This document shows, piece after piece, positions 1-12,054 of a DNA stretch of 64,000 bases; positions within the stretch are counted from its first letter, which is position 1, and each line of letters opens with the position of its first letter. This DNA is from a virus: IMG/VR virus record IMGVR_UViG_3300005613_000025, positions 1 through 64,000 of that record; one strand, given 5' to 3'. The notes beneath the pieces are model-generated. The model worked only from the letters and a program-made list of their open reading frames with translations. It did no database searches and had not been told where the DNA came from. The translations under genes and the position numbers were made by a program.

Positions 1-289
1 ATTGTGCCAAAGATTGGTCCAATAATCAACATTCACTATGTCCATTCTTTTAGTGAGTTCTCTACCCTGTGATGTTATACTGCCTGCTACATACTCATTG
101 AATAGTATGAAGTAGGGTGTTGCAAGGGCACCATAAGTTCCATTCAATACATTTTTGTCCCCACCTACGAATAGGTGGGGACAATCAAACTAACTTCAGA
201 GCCAATTGCATGGCGTTGTAGTAATCAACGTCCTTCTTTAACTCCGAAGCCTGTTTTTTCAATTCCTTTATTTTTTGCTTCTTGTCCAA
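1..289 (-). CDS. Family B DNA polymerase, C-terminal part, interrupted and cut by window edge
   Basis: On the minus strand, positions 289 to 185 encode a 34-residue stretch (TTG or ATT start) ending YYNAMQLALKLV and then TGA. After 37 nt the homology resumes in another frame from 150 down to 1 with LNGTYGALATPYF, then SITSQGRELTKRMD. Joined, this gives ALKLV-LNGTYGAL, the motif B helix (Kx3NSxYG) of family B polymerases, which contacts the incoming nucleotide. The palm motifs lie beyond the left edge. The N-terminal exonuclease half is not upstream; a plus-strand homing endonuclease sits there, so the polymerase is probably split. Frame change plus hairpin suggests translational bypassing, but a broken gene is possible. 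Confidence 0.75.
151..187 (-). other. 37-nt hairpin element interrupting polymerase motif B (bypass-like)
   Basis: Minus-strand segment between a GTT valine codon (188-190) followed directly by TGA (185-187) and a GTA valine codon (148-150) where polymerase homology resumes. It contains a perfect 11-bp stem, GTCCCCACCTA / TAGGTGGGGAC, closed by a TTCG tetraloop (157-182). Matching take-off and landing codons, an adjacent stop codon and a UUCG-capped stem are the known features of the T4 gene 60 bypass. No T-run follows on either strand, so it does not look like a terminator. Confidence 0.55.
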
Positions 290-365: not shown

Positions 366-1505
366 ATGATAAAAGAAAAAAAAGTTAATGTAAAGATAGG
401 ATTAAGAAATATCTCACATTATCGAGACATGGGTTATGATGTTTCAGTTATAAATGATGATAATAAAATATTACCAGTTTCGGTACATGATGTTCCAAGA
501 AAATCAAAGATTCGAATCACTGCGATATGTGAGTTGTGTGGTTCTGAGCGTTCAATACAAATGGTCAAGTATTGGGCAAATCACGATAGATATGGTTTTT
601 ACTCTTGCTTCAATTGTAAAAATGTTAAGAAGGAAAAGACAAATTTGATAAAGTATGGAGAGAAGTCATATTCTAAAACTGAAGAGTTCAAAGAAAAGTT
701 CAAATCAACATGTTTAGATAGGTACGGTGTTGATAATCCAAATAAATTAAAATCTGTCAGGAGAAAGATAGCAGATACTTGTGAGTCAAAATATGGTGTG
801 TCTTCACCATTATTACAAGAGTCTGTTATTGAAAACAATAAGAAGTGGATGTCATCTCAAGAATTCAAGGACAAGTCAAAGAAAACACTTATTGAGAAGT
901 ATGGTGTTGATAGCTTTTCCAAGACAGATGAATTTAAGAAAATGTTACAGGACAAGAAAGAGGAAATTGTTGATAAAATAAAGAAAACATTCAATGATAA
1001 ATATGGATTTGACCATTATTCACAGACAGACCAATTTAAGGAAGATTACCTATCTAAGATTGATGAGATAGGTGAGAAAAGGATTGAAACTTGTTTGTCA
1101 AGATATGGTGTTGATAATGTGGCTAAAGTAAATGAATTTATGAAAAAAACGATAGCTACAAAAATTGAACGAGGTCTTATATCAGATGGTGATGATGAGT
1201 GGATAAAGTATAAGAAAAAGGTTAGGAGAATTACCAATAGGTTCAAAAAGGAATTATTCAATAGATGGGAAGGATATGATTATTATGATGATGAGTATAT
1301 AAAAGAAAATTTCAGATTTTCACATACACATCGATACTATCCAACAATCGATCATAAAGTAAGTGTCTTCTATGGCTATCAGAATAACATTGATGCATCA
1401 GTAGTAGGCCATATTGATAATCTATGCATAACAAAAAGATATATAAATTCAATCAAGAGAGCAACTATTGATTCGGAATTTATTTCACACCGAACATCCC
1501 TATAA
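366..1505 (+). CDS. HNH-type homing endonuclease with KYGVD repeats
   Basis: Protein of 379 residues. The N-terminus has a zinc-binding look (CELC at 55-58, CFNC at 81-84). It is followed by about six repeats of the form K/RYGVDxxxKxxEFKEK, spaced roughly 20-35 residues, a DNA-binding repeat common in phage homing endonucleases. The C-terminus has PTIDHKVSVFYGYQNN followed by HIDNLCITKRYIN, an HNH-like nuclease core (IDHK, N, NLC). It sits next to a split DNA polymerase, a typical homing target. A late-type box lies upstream. The close relative at 5726 has the same repeats with a different nuclease. Assignment as an HNH homing enzyme is inferred from motifs. Confidence 0.7.
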   Translation: MIKEKKVNVKIGLRNISHYRDMGYDVSVINDDNKILPVSVHDVPRKSKIRITAICELCGSERSIQMVKYWANHDRYGFYSCFNCKNVKKEKTNLIKYGEKSYSKTEEFKEKFKSTCLDRYGVDNPNKLKSVRRKIADTCESKYGVSSPLLQESVIENNKKWMSSQEFKDKSKKTLIEKYGVDSFSKTDEFKKMLQDKKEEIVDKIKKTFNDKYGFDHYSQTDQFKEDYLSKIDEIGEKRIETCLSRYGVDNVAKVNEFMKKTIATKIERGLISDGDDEWIKYKKKVRRITNRFKKELFNRWEGYDYYDDEYIKENFRFSHTHRYYPTIDHKVSVFYGYQNNIDASVVGHIDNLCITKRYINSIKRATIDSEFISHRTSL

Positions 1506-5725: not shown

Positions 5726-7759
5726 ATGAACAGAAAAGAGATCATTGATAATATATTGGATGGAAGTCCTACACGAATGAGAATTTCCTATTTTCAAAAA
5801 AATCACATTGATGTTCTGAATGAGATAGAACAATTCTGTAAGAATATAGATGTTCCATTTAAACAGATGATATGGCATTGGGTCAATGATAGACCAAACA
5901 AGGTTTTATGCTCCTGTGGGAATCCTGTGAAATTCAATAGAAATTGGATTGATGGGTACAAGGAAAATTGCAGTCCGAAATGTGCCCAATCTAAAAGATC
6001 AACAAAAGAAAAGAGAAGGAAAACCGTAATGGAGAAATATGGGGTTGATAACATAGCAAAATCGACTGATATTAAAGAAAAACAGCGTAATACCAATATC
6101 GAGAGGTATGGTGCAACATCTTCATTTCAAAATAAGCATGTTCGTGATAAATGGAAAAACACAATGTTATCAAAGTATGGAGTAGACCATTATTTCAAAA
6201 CTGATGATTTCAAAGAAAAGTCAAAGGAAACAAATGAAAAAAAGTATGGAAAGCCATATTTTGTGCAGACAGATGATTATATTGAAAAGACAAAGCAAAC
6301 CATGAATGATAGATTCGGTGTTGATTGGTTCTCAAAAACTGATCAGTGGTATGAAATGTCAAAACGAACCAGTGAGGAAAAGTATGGTGTTGACCACTAT
6401 GCAAAGACCGATGAGTATAAAGAAAAAGTAAATTCCTATTACAATGAAAAATATAAAACAGATTGGTTTTTCCAGACCGATGAATTCAAAGTAAAAACAA
6501 AAGAGTTAATGAATGAAAAGTTCGGAGTTGACCATCACACGAAATCTGACTTTTACAAACAAAAGGTCATATCAGAATCACAAAGTAAATGGGGCAAGGA
6601 TCACTTTTTTCAAACTGATCAATTTTTAAATGTTTCAAAAAAGACAATGAATGAAAAGTATGGTGTTGATCATTTTCCATTATCGGATCAATATAAAGAT
6701 ATCATGTCCAGTGATAAGATGATCGAGAAAAGATTATCAAGGAGAAAGCTTTTCTATAAAGGTCTTGGATTCACTTTCATATCAGACTCTAAAAACAATG
6801 TATCACATGTTGTTTTGAAGAGTGAGGTGTGTGGACATGAATTTGAGATACATCCAACAACATTGCAAAGAAGAATGGATGCAAATATTCAAGCCTGTTC
6901 CGTGTGTAATCCATTCGATACACAATCTGGACAGGAGAAAAATGTCATTGAGTTCATCGGATCATTGGGAATTGATTTTGTTGCAAATAAAAGAGATATT
7001 ATACCGCCTTATGAAATTGATATTTATATTCCAGAGTTAAAGTTGGCGATCGAGTATAATGGTCTTTATTGGCATTCTGAGATGTACAGATCAAGAAAAT
7101 TTCACATCGAAAAAACTTCTAAGTGTAATGAGTCGGGTATAAGACTCATACATATATGGGAAGATGATTGGATGTTCAAAAATGACATAGTAAGATCCAT
7201 AATACTCAATGCTGTCAATAAAACGGGAAACCGTATATATGCTCGTAAGTGTGTCATAAAGGAGGTTACCGATAAGAAACTGGTGAATCATTTTTTCGAT
7301 TCAAATCACATACAAGGCAAGACAAACTTTAAAACAGCAATTGGTCTGTTCTATGATGATGAAATGGTTTCGTGTATGTTGTTTCATAAACCAAGGAAGC
7401 AACACGAGCTTGTAAGGTTCTGTAATAAAAAGTTTCATAATGTGATCGGTGCTGCATCCAAGCTGTTCAAGTATTACATTAAGAATTATGAAGTTGATGA
7501 GATCATTTCATTTGCTGATATTTCAATGTTCACTGGCGGTTTATATGAATCACTCGGATTTGAATTTGATAATAGAAGTGATGTGAATTATTGGTGGGTT
7601 GTCAATGGGATAAGAAGGCATAGGTTCTCTTTCTCCAAGAAAAAACTTGTCAGTAAAGGATATGATGAGAATTTAAGTGGTTCTGATATCATGCGTTCAC
7701 TTGGCAATTACAAAGTGTTCGGATGTGGATTGGATAAATGGGTATGGAATAGAAACTGA
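5726..7759 (+). CDS. Vsr-fold (PD-(D/E)XK) homing endonuclease with ten KYGVD repeats
   Basis: Protein of 677 residues. After an N-terminal zinc-type region (CSCG, CSPKC) come about ten repeats of KYGVDHxxKTDEFKEK at residues 102-330. The nuclease domain near 400-500 has EIDIYIP then AIEYNGLYWHSE, and GIRLIHIWEDDW, the core of Vsr-like phage homing endonucleases. A C-terminal domain (about 510-677, FADISMFTGGLYESLGF) is often attached to this family. It follows the major capsid gene and its terminator and has its own late-type promoter, the usual position of a free-standing homing gene. Confidence 0.8.
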   Translation: MNRKEIIDNILDGSPTRMRISYFQKNHIDVLNEIEQFCKNIDVPFKQMIWHWVNDRPNKVLCSCGNPVKFNRNWIDGYKENCSPKCAQSKRSTKEKRRKTVMEKYGVDNIAKSTDIKEKQRNTNIERYGATSSFQNKHVRDKWKNTMLSKYGVDHYFKTDDFKEKSKETNEKKYGKPYFVQTDDYIEKTKQTMNDRFGVDWFSKTDQWYEMSKRTSEEKYGVDHYAKTDEYKEKVNSYYNEKYKTDWFFQTDEFKVKTKELMNEKFGVDHHTKSDFYKQKVISESQSKWGKDHFFQTDQFLNVSKKTMNEKYGVDHFPLSDQYKDIMSSDKMIEKRLSRRKLFYKGLGFTFISDSKNNVSHVVLKSEVCGHEFEIHPTTLQRRMDANIQACSVCNPFDTQSGQEKNVIEFIGSLGIDFVANKRDIIPPYEIDIYIPELKLAIEYNGLYWHSEMYRSRKFHIEKTSKCNESGIRLIHIWEDDWMFKNDIVRSIILNAVNKTGNRIYARKCVIKEVTDKKLVNHFFDSNHIQGKTNFKTAIGLFYDDEMVSCMLFHKPRKQHELVRFCNKKFHNVIGAASKLFKYYIKNYEVDEIISFADISMFTGGLYESLGFEFDNRSDVNYWWVVNGIRRHRFSFSKKKLVSKGYDENLSGSDIMRSLGNYKVFGCGLDKWVWNRN

Positions 7760-9388: not shown

Positions 9389-10204
9389 ATGAGATATTTG
9401 AGACCATATGGTGTAATAAATGAGAAATATGATTATAAGATCAATTTCGTTGATAGGGGTAATAGATACAATGATATCAGATATACTTTTTTGAAATTGG
9501 TTCAGAAAGCCATACCACATGGACAGGAATCATATTACGAATCCTTCTTACCTGGTCTCAATAGGGATAAAATAGGTAATTTCTATGTGAAGATAGGTGA
9601 TTCTGATGTCATGTTCACATCACATCTTGATACTGCTTCAGATGATATGTTTGATATAGAGCAATTTGCTTACGAGTCTGCTGGTGATGAGATAATTCAT
9701 ACGGGCAAAAAAAGTATATTAGGAGCAGATGACAGGTCAGGAGTTGCTCTCATGTTGAAGATGTTGCATAATAGAATTCCAGGACTTTATTATTTTTTTA
9801 TCGGAGAAGAGCGAGGTTCAATTGGATCTAAATTCGTGAGAGAGAATTTTCACAACATAGAGCACATGACATCTTTGAATAAGTGTATATCTTTTGATAG
9901 GAGTGGTATTGACTCGATAATAACACATCAGGCAGGTGATACCTGTTGTTCGGATCAGTTTTCAAGTGCCATATTGAATGAATTCAATCTATCAGGTATG
10001 AGAATGAAAAAGGATCCGACAGGAGTTTGGACCGATTCAGCAACATTCATGGATGTGATACCTGAATGCACGAACATATCAGTTGGATATTACAACGAAC
10101 ATAGCGAGAATGAATATCAGAACATGACATTTTTGAATAAATTGTCTGATAGTGTTTTGAGAATTGATTGGAATTCACTACCTTCGTTGAGAAATAAGTG
10201 GTAA
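9389..10204 (+). CDS. Zinc-dependent peptidase (M20/M28-like)
   Basis: Protein of 271 residues with the metal-ligand pattern of co-catalytic zinc exopeptidases: SHLDT (H79), GADDRSG (D114, bridging Asp), GEERGSIGS (E140 catalytic, E141 ligand) and a late HSENEY. The spacing fits the M20/M28 clan. It begins MRYLRPYGVINE, loosely like the head-targeting leader. It overlaps the next gene by TAATG, so the two are translationally coupled. A peptidase of this type is unusual in a phage; its substrate is unknown. Confidence 0.7.
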   Translation: MRYLRPYGVINEKYDYKINFVDRGNRYNDIRYTFLKLVQKAIPHGQESYYESFLPGLNRDKIGNFYVKIGDSDVMFTSHLDTASDDMFDIEQFAYESAGDEIIHTGKKSILGADDRSGVALMLKMLHNRIPGLYYFFIGEERGSIGSKFVRENFHNIEHMTSLNKCISFDRSGIDSIITHQAGDTCCSDQFSSAILNEFNLSGMRMKKDPTGVWTDSATFMDVIPECTNISVGYYNEHSENEYQNMTFLNKLSDSVLRIDWNSLPSLRNKW

Positions 10205-10773
10205 TGACGATACAGGATATTCTAAAGAGTTTGGATTTCACGGTCGGTGATATTAAAAGTAGAGTGAATTCTGGTGTGATATCATTGAATGGTGATATTG
10301 TAAATGATGTCAGGTTGGATATCGGTGAGGTATCACAAGTGATGTCGTTCGGACATTTTCTAAGTCACTTGAATTCACATATCAATTTCGGTGATTTCAC
10401 TCAATTCTTGAAAGTGTTCGGATTCGATGATATTATGCACAATTCCAGTAATATAAAGAACGAATTGACCTTGTTTCTCAATGATTGGTCACTTGTCAGA
10501 ACAAGTGCGTTTGATGGATTTTTCATAAAACATGGGCCATGTGAGGAAAATGGCATTTTATTTCACATTGAGGGAACTCCTGAATTTTTCAAACAGATTG
10601 TCGTCAATAAAAATCCGAACATTGATATTGATAAATTGAAAGCAGACCTTGAAAAAGTGAACAAACAATTGAGCAATCAAGGATTTTTGAACAATGCTCC
10701 AAAATTCAAGGTGGATCAGTGTATCAAAAGAAAGGAAAAGTTGGAAAAACAAATTATGGAATTTAATATATAA
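10204..10773 (+). CDS. S4-like plus ValRS-arm RNA-binding protein, next to tmRNA
   Basis: Protein of 189 residues. Residues 15-36 (VGDIKSRVNSGVISLNGDI) resemble the S4 RNA-binding motif found at the C-terminus of TyrRS. Residues about 142-187 (LKADLEKVNKQLSN, then FLNNAPKFKV and KRKEKLEKQ) match the coiled-coil tRNA-binding arm at the C-terminus of valyl-tRNA synthetase (NxxFxxxAP then RxKL). No catalytic domain is present. The ATG at 10204 overlaps the previous TAA; a GTG at 10198 is possible. It ends 8 nt before the tmRNA, so a role with tmRNA or tRNA is likely, but this is inference. Confidence 0.6.
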   Translation: MTIQDILKSLDFTVGDIKSRVNSGVISLNGDIVNDVRLDIGEVSQVMSFGHFLSHLNSHINFGDFTQFLKVFGFDDIMHNSSNIKNELTLFLNDWSLVRTSAFDGFFIKHGPCEENGILFHIEGTPEFFKQIVVNKNPNIDIDKLKADLEKVNKQLSNQGFLNNAPKFKVDQCIKRKEKLEKQIMEFNI

Positions 10774-10781
10774 GTGAATAT

Positions 10782-11154
10782 GGGGGCGTTTTGGCATTTG
10801 ACTCATAATGTTGAAAGGTTATCATGCAGGTATCGGTTTGTTAGTTTCCGATCATAAAAAATTGACATTTTAAGTAAACGGCAACGTTTCAACAGAAGTA
10901 GGAAACAGTGAAGATGTAGTAGCTGTCCTACAAAACAACTTGCTCGAGGTAAGAGAGCTTGAAGTAGCTTAATTGACACTTCATAAATCACTTCCGCTGA
11001 GTCACAACAGGTAAAAAGTGTGATAGTTTTTGTTGGTCTTTTTTGAGTCGAAAAACCAAATATTTTGTTGAATTTTGAAAAATTCTCCTAAACCTGTGAA
11101 CGAGTGATGTCGGTCAGTTATGAACACGAGGGTTCGAGTCCCTCCGCTTCCACC
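10782..11154 (+). ncRNA. ssrA: tmRNA with a non-standard 30-codon tag
   Basis: Ends pair as a tRNA acceptor: GGGGGCG (10782-10788) with CGCTTCC (11145-11151), including a G3-U70 pair needed for alanylation. The T-arm is GAGGG-TTCGAGT-CCCTC (11128-11144), and the 3' end is ACC with CCA completed after transcription. The D-like loop reads TTTTGGCATTTGAC. A hairpin TATCGG/CCGATC has its loop strand TGTTAGTTT pairing with AAATTGACA, giving pseudoknot PK1 just before TAAGTAAAC and the GGC resume codon at 10880. The tag runs 10880-10969 with stop TAA at 10970-10972 inside the P5 loop (GAAGT/ACTTC). Tag begins GNVSTEVGNS and ends LEVRELEVA, not YALAA. Confidence 0.9.
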
Positions 11155-11156
11155 GG

Positions 11157-11199
11157 AGCCTTTACTTTTAATATATAGAATATTATGAAAGTAAAGGCT
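11157..11199 (+). promoter_or_regulatory. Hairpin with late promoter in its loop and start codon at its 3' arm
   Basis: AGCCTTTACTTT (11157-11168) pairs perfectly with AAAGTAAAGGCT (11188-11199), followed by TTTT. The loop holds the late-type box TTAATATATAG (11168-11178) and the ATG of the GIY-YIG gene (11185). On a transcript reading through from tmRNA the start codon would be locked in the hairpin, and the structure may also act as the tmRNA terminator. Transcripts starting at the late box would lack the 5' arm. T4 I-TevI is regulated by the same kind of arrangement. Confidence 0.6.
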
Positions 11200-12054
11200 T
11201 TTTCTGTATATCAAATAACTAATGAAATAAATGGTAAGATATATGTTGGTATCCATGAAACTTATGACCTTGGTGACGGTTATATGGGAAGTGGTAAGAT
11301 ATTACATCGAGCATATAAAAAATATGGTTTGGAAAATTTTAAAAAAGATATATTATATGTGTTTGATAATAAAAAAGATATGTTGGATAAAGAACGTGAG
11401 ATTGTTAATGTGGATTTTATAAAGAGGAAAGATACATATAATGTTATTGTTGGTGGAGTTTTAAATACATCTAATTTCGTAAATGTTAAAGATTCTAATG
11501 GTAACTGCTTTCTTGTTCCTATTGATGATGAGAGATATTTATCCGGTGAGTTGGTTGGTATAACAAAAGGATTTGTGAATGTAATGGATAATGACGGTAA
11601 TACATTCCAAGTTTCTTCCGAAGAATATTTAAATAATGATAATTTATCGGGTATTACCCGGAATATGGTAACTGTTAAAAATTCAGATGGTGATACTTTT
11701 AATGTGTCTATTGATGATGAGAGATATCTTTCTGGTGAATTAGTAGGTGTAACCAAAGGTTATGTAACAGTTGTTGATCCAAATGGGGATGTCAAGCGTG
11801 TGTCTGTGGATTGTGAAGAATATTTGAATGGTACTTATAAAAAGTATAAAGTCCCCGGCAAAAAACATACTTCTGAAACAAAAGAACGAATAAGTATTTC
11901 TAAGAAAGGCAAGGGTTGTGGTTCAGATAATTCACAATATGGTACTAAATGGGTCTATTCTATGTCGTTAAAGATGAATAAGAAGATAGGTGTTGATGAA
12001 TTGGATAATTATCTATCAGATGGGTGGTTAATTGGTAGGAAGATGTCTTTTTGA
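11185..12054 (+). CDS. GIY-YIG homing endonuclease
   Basis: Protein of 289 residues. The GIY-YIG core is VYQITNEINGKIYVGIHET (residues 8-26) with a later EREIV glutamate. Four repeats of about 32 residues (VxDxNGNxFxVxxDDERYLSGELVG) fill residues 90-225. The C-terminus has KHTSETKERIS, a NUMOD-like DNA-binding helix. It sits 30 nt after the tmRNA 3' end. The first six codons form the 3' arm of a hairpin with the end of the tmRNA unit, suggesting early silencing and late expression. Confidence 0.85.
   Translation: MKVKAFSVYQITNEINGKIYVGIHETYDLGDGYMGSGKILHRAYKKYGLENFKKDILYVFDNKKDMLDKEREIVNVDFIKRKDTYNVIVGGVLNTSNFVNVKDSNGNCFLVPIDDERYLSGELVGITKGFVNVMDNDGNTFQVSSEEYLNNDNLSGITRNMVTVKNSDGDTFNVSIDDERYLSGELVGVTKGYVTVVDPNGDVKRVSVDCEEYLNGTYKKYKVPGKKHTSETKERISISKKGKGCGSDNSQYGTKWVYSMSLKMNKKIGVDELDNYLSDGWLIGRKMSF

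Follow-up and report, generated by a model that had tools for sequence, protein, structure and literature searches.

How a family B DNA polymerase (PolB) could be made as a single chain from a gene whose motif B is interrupted by a frame-changing gap is the question raised by this locus, which lies at the start of the window, the whole stretch of 64,000 nucleotides that was analysed and part of a 91.7-kb viral record (IMGVR_UViG_3300005613_000025). The best explanation, and judging from comparison of related sequences a likely one, is programmed translational bypassing, by which ribosomes would pass over a homing-associated insert in a polymerase that is already divided between two loci.

Anatomy of the split motif B

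An earlier note on this DNA had described motif B as split ALKLV / LNGTYGAL on the minus strand, and the split was re-found in place together with the 37-nt frame-changing gap (window 187–151, minus strand), the TGA directly after a GTT codon and the gap end directly before a GTA codon. The reported hairpin was present with its TTCG loop and perfect pairing, but its stem was counted as 13 bp and not 11 bp. The site comprises the following features.

188–289, minus strand: first ORF (ORF1) of the C-terminal PolB gene (MDKKQKIKELKKQASELKKDVDYYNAMQLALKLV), with 34 codons counted from the TTG start at 289 to GTT
190–188, minus strand: take-off codon GTT, the last codon of ORF1, encoding Val34
151–187, minus strand: insert (coding gap) of 37 nt, consisting of TGA, hairpin and AAAT, missing from insert-free relatives
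187–185, minus strand: stop codon TGA adjoining the take-off codon, the first triplet of the insert
155–184, minus strand: perfect 13-bp hairpin, TTGTCCCCACCTA-TTCG-TAGGTGGGGACAA, from fold and sequence
148–150, minus strand: putative landing codon GTA, which encodes Val like take-off GTT, from comparison of inserts
1–147, minus strand: ORF2, the remainder of motif B and onward (LNGTYGALATPYFILFNEYVAGS...), leaving the window and going on in contig L012

As the gap from GTT to GTA is 37 nt, the frame changes across it; 40 nt separate the end of GTT from the resume codon TTG, and the resume sequence from window position 147 (minus strand) reads TTG AAT GGA ACT TAT GGT. ORF1 was also found in relatives, where its start was mostly ATG, with TTG shared by L138. 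The RNA fold of the hairpin gave z = -5.07 against 200 shuffles, none of which (0/200) was as stable. The window copy was the sole hairpin of this kind in the own-record DNA searched and no further copy was found in 400 kb of G001, on which grounds a dispersed mobile hairpin was rejected, and GC-rich CCCC..GGGG hairpins in ~970 kb of collected loci occurred mostly at this polB place. A terminator was also rejected, as the hairpin lacks a T-run on both strands, in contrast to unrelated CCCC hairpins of other contigs.

A polymerase encoded at two distant loci

The ORF ending in ALKLV opens a polymerase gene of its own, which encodes the C-terminal part (C-part) and is read from window position 289 on the minus strand, and the N-terminal part (N-part) was located elsewhere in the record.

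Record 75049–76563 (L003:1050–2564), plus strand: PolB N-part, 504 aa, comprising the exonuclease domain with motif A and reaching as far as the fingers, in which it ends

The closest relatives in annotated collections were uncultured phage records of 635–735 kb, and in LR745206 the N- and C-parts also lie ~100 kb apart on opposite strands. PolB is encoded throughout this clade by two distant, oppositely oriented genes split at the fingers, and each part is present as a single copy in larger related contigs. Matches to the N-part and C-part were likewise far apart in Lak phages.

The C-part leaves the window edge and continues in contig L012 with 123/123 nt identical, and the catalytic YADTDS motif is intact in this continuation. 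L012 (IMGVR_UViG_3300005613_000395) matches window 1–123 and begins 24 nt past the first base of the resume codon; judging from this overlap, L012 and the window apparently represent the same phage, the contig having broken near the insert. Probable inteins were observed after YADTDS, polymerase motif C, in the insert-carrying L016/L071 and L018/L075.

Two further features of this genome were recorded. The window holds a phage-encoded tmRNA at 10782–11155 (plus strand) with the tag VLQNNLLEVRELEVA (ARAGORN; Rfam RF00023, 49.4 bits against a cut-off of 47), directly 3' of which is an ORF (11185–12054) that looked GIY-YIG-like by eye. A 425-aa protein at L003:3610–4887 (minus strand) appeared TnpB-like by eye and had no Pfam match.

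Recurrence of inserts in related huge phages

Searches with the C-part, after removal of duplicate fetches, gave 34 loci with an insert and 23 without. The unique alleles from the polymerase search comprised 26 inserts and 19 insert-free sequences, and later fetches raised the unique inserts to 32; no relative was found in the bacterial and archaeal genomes searched. The earlier note had proposed alignment with relatives lacking the gap, of which these 19 alleles are examples. Removal of one stretch of 36–48 nt brought back 12/12 motif B residues in 26/26 unique inserts, with insert lengths that span all three remainders modulo 3. Six insert sites were distinguished, all within 12 codons of motif B (the caret marks the site, followed by take-off and landing codons).

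Site A: QLA^LKLV, GCT to GCT or GCA
Site B: QLAL^KLV, CTT or CTG to CTA, with the later additions L226, L250, L260 and L138
Site C: KLV^LNG, GTT to GTA or GTT, the window and L071
Site D: NGSY^GAF, TAT or TAC, with no matching landing codon, n = 8
Site E: NGS^YG, TCT to TCA
Site F: NG^SYG, GGT to GGT, L165 and L171/L268, from later fetches

That the window contig ends within this gene would suit a dead gene or an assembly error, the latter also raised in the earlier note. Identical inserts recurring in separate metagenomes (e.g. L037, L038, L070 and L076) speak against error, and both readings are further opposed by the occurrence of different inserts at one motif, by larger contigs without a second C-part copy and by a predominance of synonymous differences among alleles across ORF1, the motif and ORF2, several dS values being saturated. 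We regard a dead gene or an assembly error as extremely improbable.

Flanking codons and hairpin position

The codons on either side of the gap were synonymous in all 24 inserts of classes A, B, C, E and F, usually with a different third base, and unmatched in all eight at site D, giving 24 synonymous cases among 32 unique inserts. Sites A and B carry similar hairpins one codon apart, with both flanking codons shifted along. At site D the triplet in the Tyr landing position was TAA, CAA, AGC, AAC or GAC, and by our own count six of the eight could form Watson-Crick pairs at two positions of a GUA anticodon, which is a weak pattern. Alternative take-off codons for site D (Gly and the codon after Tyr, considered by eye) were rejected since each would delete motif B residues.

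Stems were mostly 9–17 bp and located 3' of the take-off codon, and 9/26 inserts had GNRA or UUCG loops. The C-run of the hairpin begins 6–7 nt past the take-off codon in 26/26 inserts and 5 nt past it in class F, and the distance from stem to landing site (3') varies among inserts. Sixteen G.U pairs were counted on the sense strand versus one antisense equivalent (binomial p = 3e-4, the rows being related by descent). The constraint on the hairpin lies in the mRNA, and these sequence patterns point to selection of the hairpin there, short of proof of bypassing.

A constraint on the RNA strand is also what removal of the insert from the mRNA would produce, whether by a hairpin-guided endonuclease and ligase or as a mini-intron, and such removal would account for codons restored at any insert length and for the unmatched site D. 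It does not explain why flanking codons are synonymous in five site classes or why stops lie close to take-off, the 5' distance is fixed while the 3' distance is variable, and a conserved splice motif is absent. An Rfam search near the site gave no intron match and the 37-nt insert is much shorter than known self-splicing introns, and a self-splicing intron was rejected on these two counts. Overall, we consider RNA-level removal improbable.

Stop codons and reading frames

A stop codon was found no more than two codons from take-off in 24/26 inserts, mostly one codon later; classes A, B and D usually have a sense codon right after take-off and the stop one codon on, and in the window TGA is directly adjacent. 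All three stop codons occur among the inserts, which makes stop-codon recoding unlikely, and it was rejected. The leader peptide is Lys-rich in insert-carrying and insert-free relatives alike, so an insert-specific nascent-peptide signal of the KKYK type known from gene 60 was not apparent.

In the window the sequence GUU UGA resembles the RF2 frameshift context, and the +1 frame is open here and in some other inserts, L071 among them, which would allow a +1 frameshift at GTT TGA with reading through the hairpin and the addition of 13 residues (DCPHLFVGGDKNV). Such a Pro/Gly-rich addition to motif B would be likely to inactivate the enzyme, and inserts of 36, 39, 42 and 48 nt involve no net frame change yet contain in-frame stops. 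Because the downstream frame is stopped inside the insert in 17/26 cases, one frameshift cannot account for the family, and we find this reading scarcely credible.

A second division of the protein, with ORF1 and ORF2 as separate chains that assemble in the manner of gp43A/gp43B of Aeromonas phage 44RR, would extend the existing division of the polymerase between two loci. The 44RR gene 43 is divided by a 49-nt hairpin-bearing spacer (PMC2988022), and the IC-UTS of gene 43 in Aeromonas phages 44RR and 25 is like the present inserts a short hairpin-bearing insertion in a T4-type PolB. The 44RR gene is cut at the fingers, as in the N/C split described here, and not in motif B; its 43B has its own ATG and purine-rich leader and makes a second subunit, unlike the present inserts. 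Given this position at the fingers followed by leader and ATG, the 44RR spacer represents a two-cistron split of a different kind. An in-frame ATG, GTG or TTG near the resume point is absent in 13/26 inserts, and re-initiation, which like frameshifting fails for most inserts, was rejected on the missing starts. A second split would also break one active-site helix at six places and leave ORF1 as a 33–49-aa peptide, all of which makes it very improbable.

A model for bypassing

The hop from GTT to GTA proposed in the earlier note is supported by the restored motif, the synonymous codons and the hairpin bias. According to the bypassing model, a ribosome translating the C-terminal PolB gene would halt at GTT (Val34), its A site occupied by UGA and the hairpin lying where the mRNA enters. 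Peptidyl-tRNA-Val would release GTT, and the ribosome would slide across 37 nt. The same tRNA would then re-pair with GUA and decoding would restart at UUG, yielding a single chain ...ALKLV-LNGTYGAL...; we infer the jump itself. The pattern of NNU take-off and NNA landing suggests a U34 tRNA leaving a weak wobble pair for a Watson-Crick pair. All gap lengths found here are below 56 nt, the limit for efficient sliding at T4 gene 60 (PMC11194080).

Association with an endonuclease-like gene

Next to the C-part, the window carries a divergently oriented gene.

366–1505, plus strand: divergent homing-endonuclease-like gene with DUF7487 repeats and an HNH-like C-terminus (PTIDHK...NLCITK..NS.K)

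Its protein matches DUF7487, and the C-terminal part has invariant DHK, N and NS.K residues and a predicted strand-strand-helix arrangement. The best fold match in the PDB was an HNH nicking endonuclease (weak, E 0.35), and a PDB sequence search gave no match. Divergent relatives of this gene lie just upstream of the C-part in 14/26 insert alleles compared with 0/19 insert-free alleles (Fisher p = 6e-5, unique alleles being counted irrespective of phylogeny), which links the inserts to the endonuclease-like gene. The remaining 12/26 inserts lack an intact copy, and L031/L032 retain a degraded remnant. Downstream in the insert-free L025 and L028 is a distant DUF7487 relative in which the HNH-like part does not match.

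Across the tree, insert state has a scattered distribution: L043, with a site A insert, and L056, with one at site D, share an identical downstream protein. L050 (site D, gene present) and L039 (neither insert nor gene) are 92–100% identical downstream of the motif, and at the motif identity falls to 67% with zero amino-acid changes. This pattern would fit a cassette introduced through gene conversion. Most proteins from sites D and E group apart from A, B and C proteins in the endonuclease tree, the exceptions being L079 (B) and L051 (D). The endonuclease-like proteins upstream of the C-part in L079 and L051 have the same C-terminal domain and different N-terminal parts, which are perhaps swapped DNA-binding parts.

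A look at what else lies beside relatives of the endonuclease revealed more polB cases and no additional gene recognisably split by a hairpin. More DUF7487-type proteins were observed in the same genome, at window 5726–7759 (by eye) and at L003:6275–7924 and 9597–11132 (Pfam), near apparent structural genes.

We infer that the endonuclease-like protein would cut motif B DNA that lacks an insert, that an insert would shield against the cut, and that insert and endonuclease gene would travel together as a cassette, as has been proposed for T4 mobA and gene 60. A bolder proposal is that huge phages harbour a family of mobile bypass cassettes, in which DUF7487/HNH endonucleases target motif B DNA and target-destroying hairpins, arising or arriving at six or more positions, are tolerated because ribosomes hop over them, with one class lacking a codon-anticodon match at landing; to this we give about even chances.

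Comparison with known systems

T4 gene 60 resembles the present locus in that a conserved motif of an already split replication enzyme is interrupted by a short non-coding stretch, 46 codons from the start (33–49 here), with matching codons, a stop nearby, a hairpin and a homing endonuclease gene (mobA; here an endonuclease-like gene) alongside. The T4 gap is 50 nt and those here are 36–48 nt; its codons are identical, whereas here they are usually synonymous and at site D unmatched. The T4 hairpin contains the take-off codon and its stop follows take-off directly, while here the hairpin begins after the take-off codon and classes A, B and D usually have a sense codon first. T4 gene 60 encodes a topoisomerase, in contrast to a polymerase with six insert sites and more than 30 natural variants, and the divergent endonuclease-like gene found here is of a DUF7487/HNH-like type unlike mobA. 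The T4 mobA cassette beside gene 60 was reportedly described by Bonocora et al. in 2011.

Background on the mobA cassette and gene 60 is available together with that on the byps of Magnusiomyces capitatus mitochondria, short inserts skipped by translational jumping whose codons are sometimes imperfectly matched (PMC5009743). The 81 byps of M. capitatus are scattered over mitochondrial genes, whereas here each genome searched yielded a single insert, invariably within motif B of polB. The terminase of Streptomyces phage Hau3 is a candidate for bypass in a phage gene (PMC5009743); its gap is much shorter than the 36–48 nt found here, it involves a UUA codon and the candidate is unproven. Searches of the open-access literature turned up no description of bypassing in the PolB of huge phages.

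Implications

To our knowledge, T4 gene 60 is the single proven case of efficient programmed bypassing in phages. In the present family more than 30 natural variants are available for six positions in one gene, together with insert-free sister alleles that serve as controls, and because both exist the rules for take-off, sliding and landing should be readable from nature. Gene finders, our results suggest, overlook or shorten such bypassed genes. The results also suggest that bypass inserts have emerged more than once in company with homing endonucleases, and this even within the catalytic helix of a DNA polymerase that is probably essential. Bypassing, known from one T4 gene, appears to be a recurring mobile trick.
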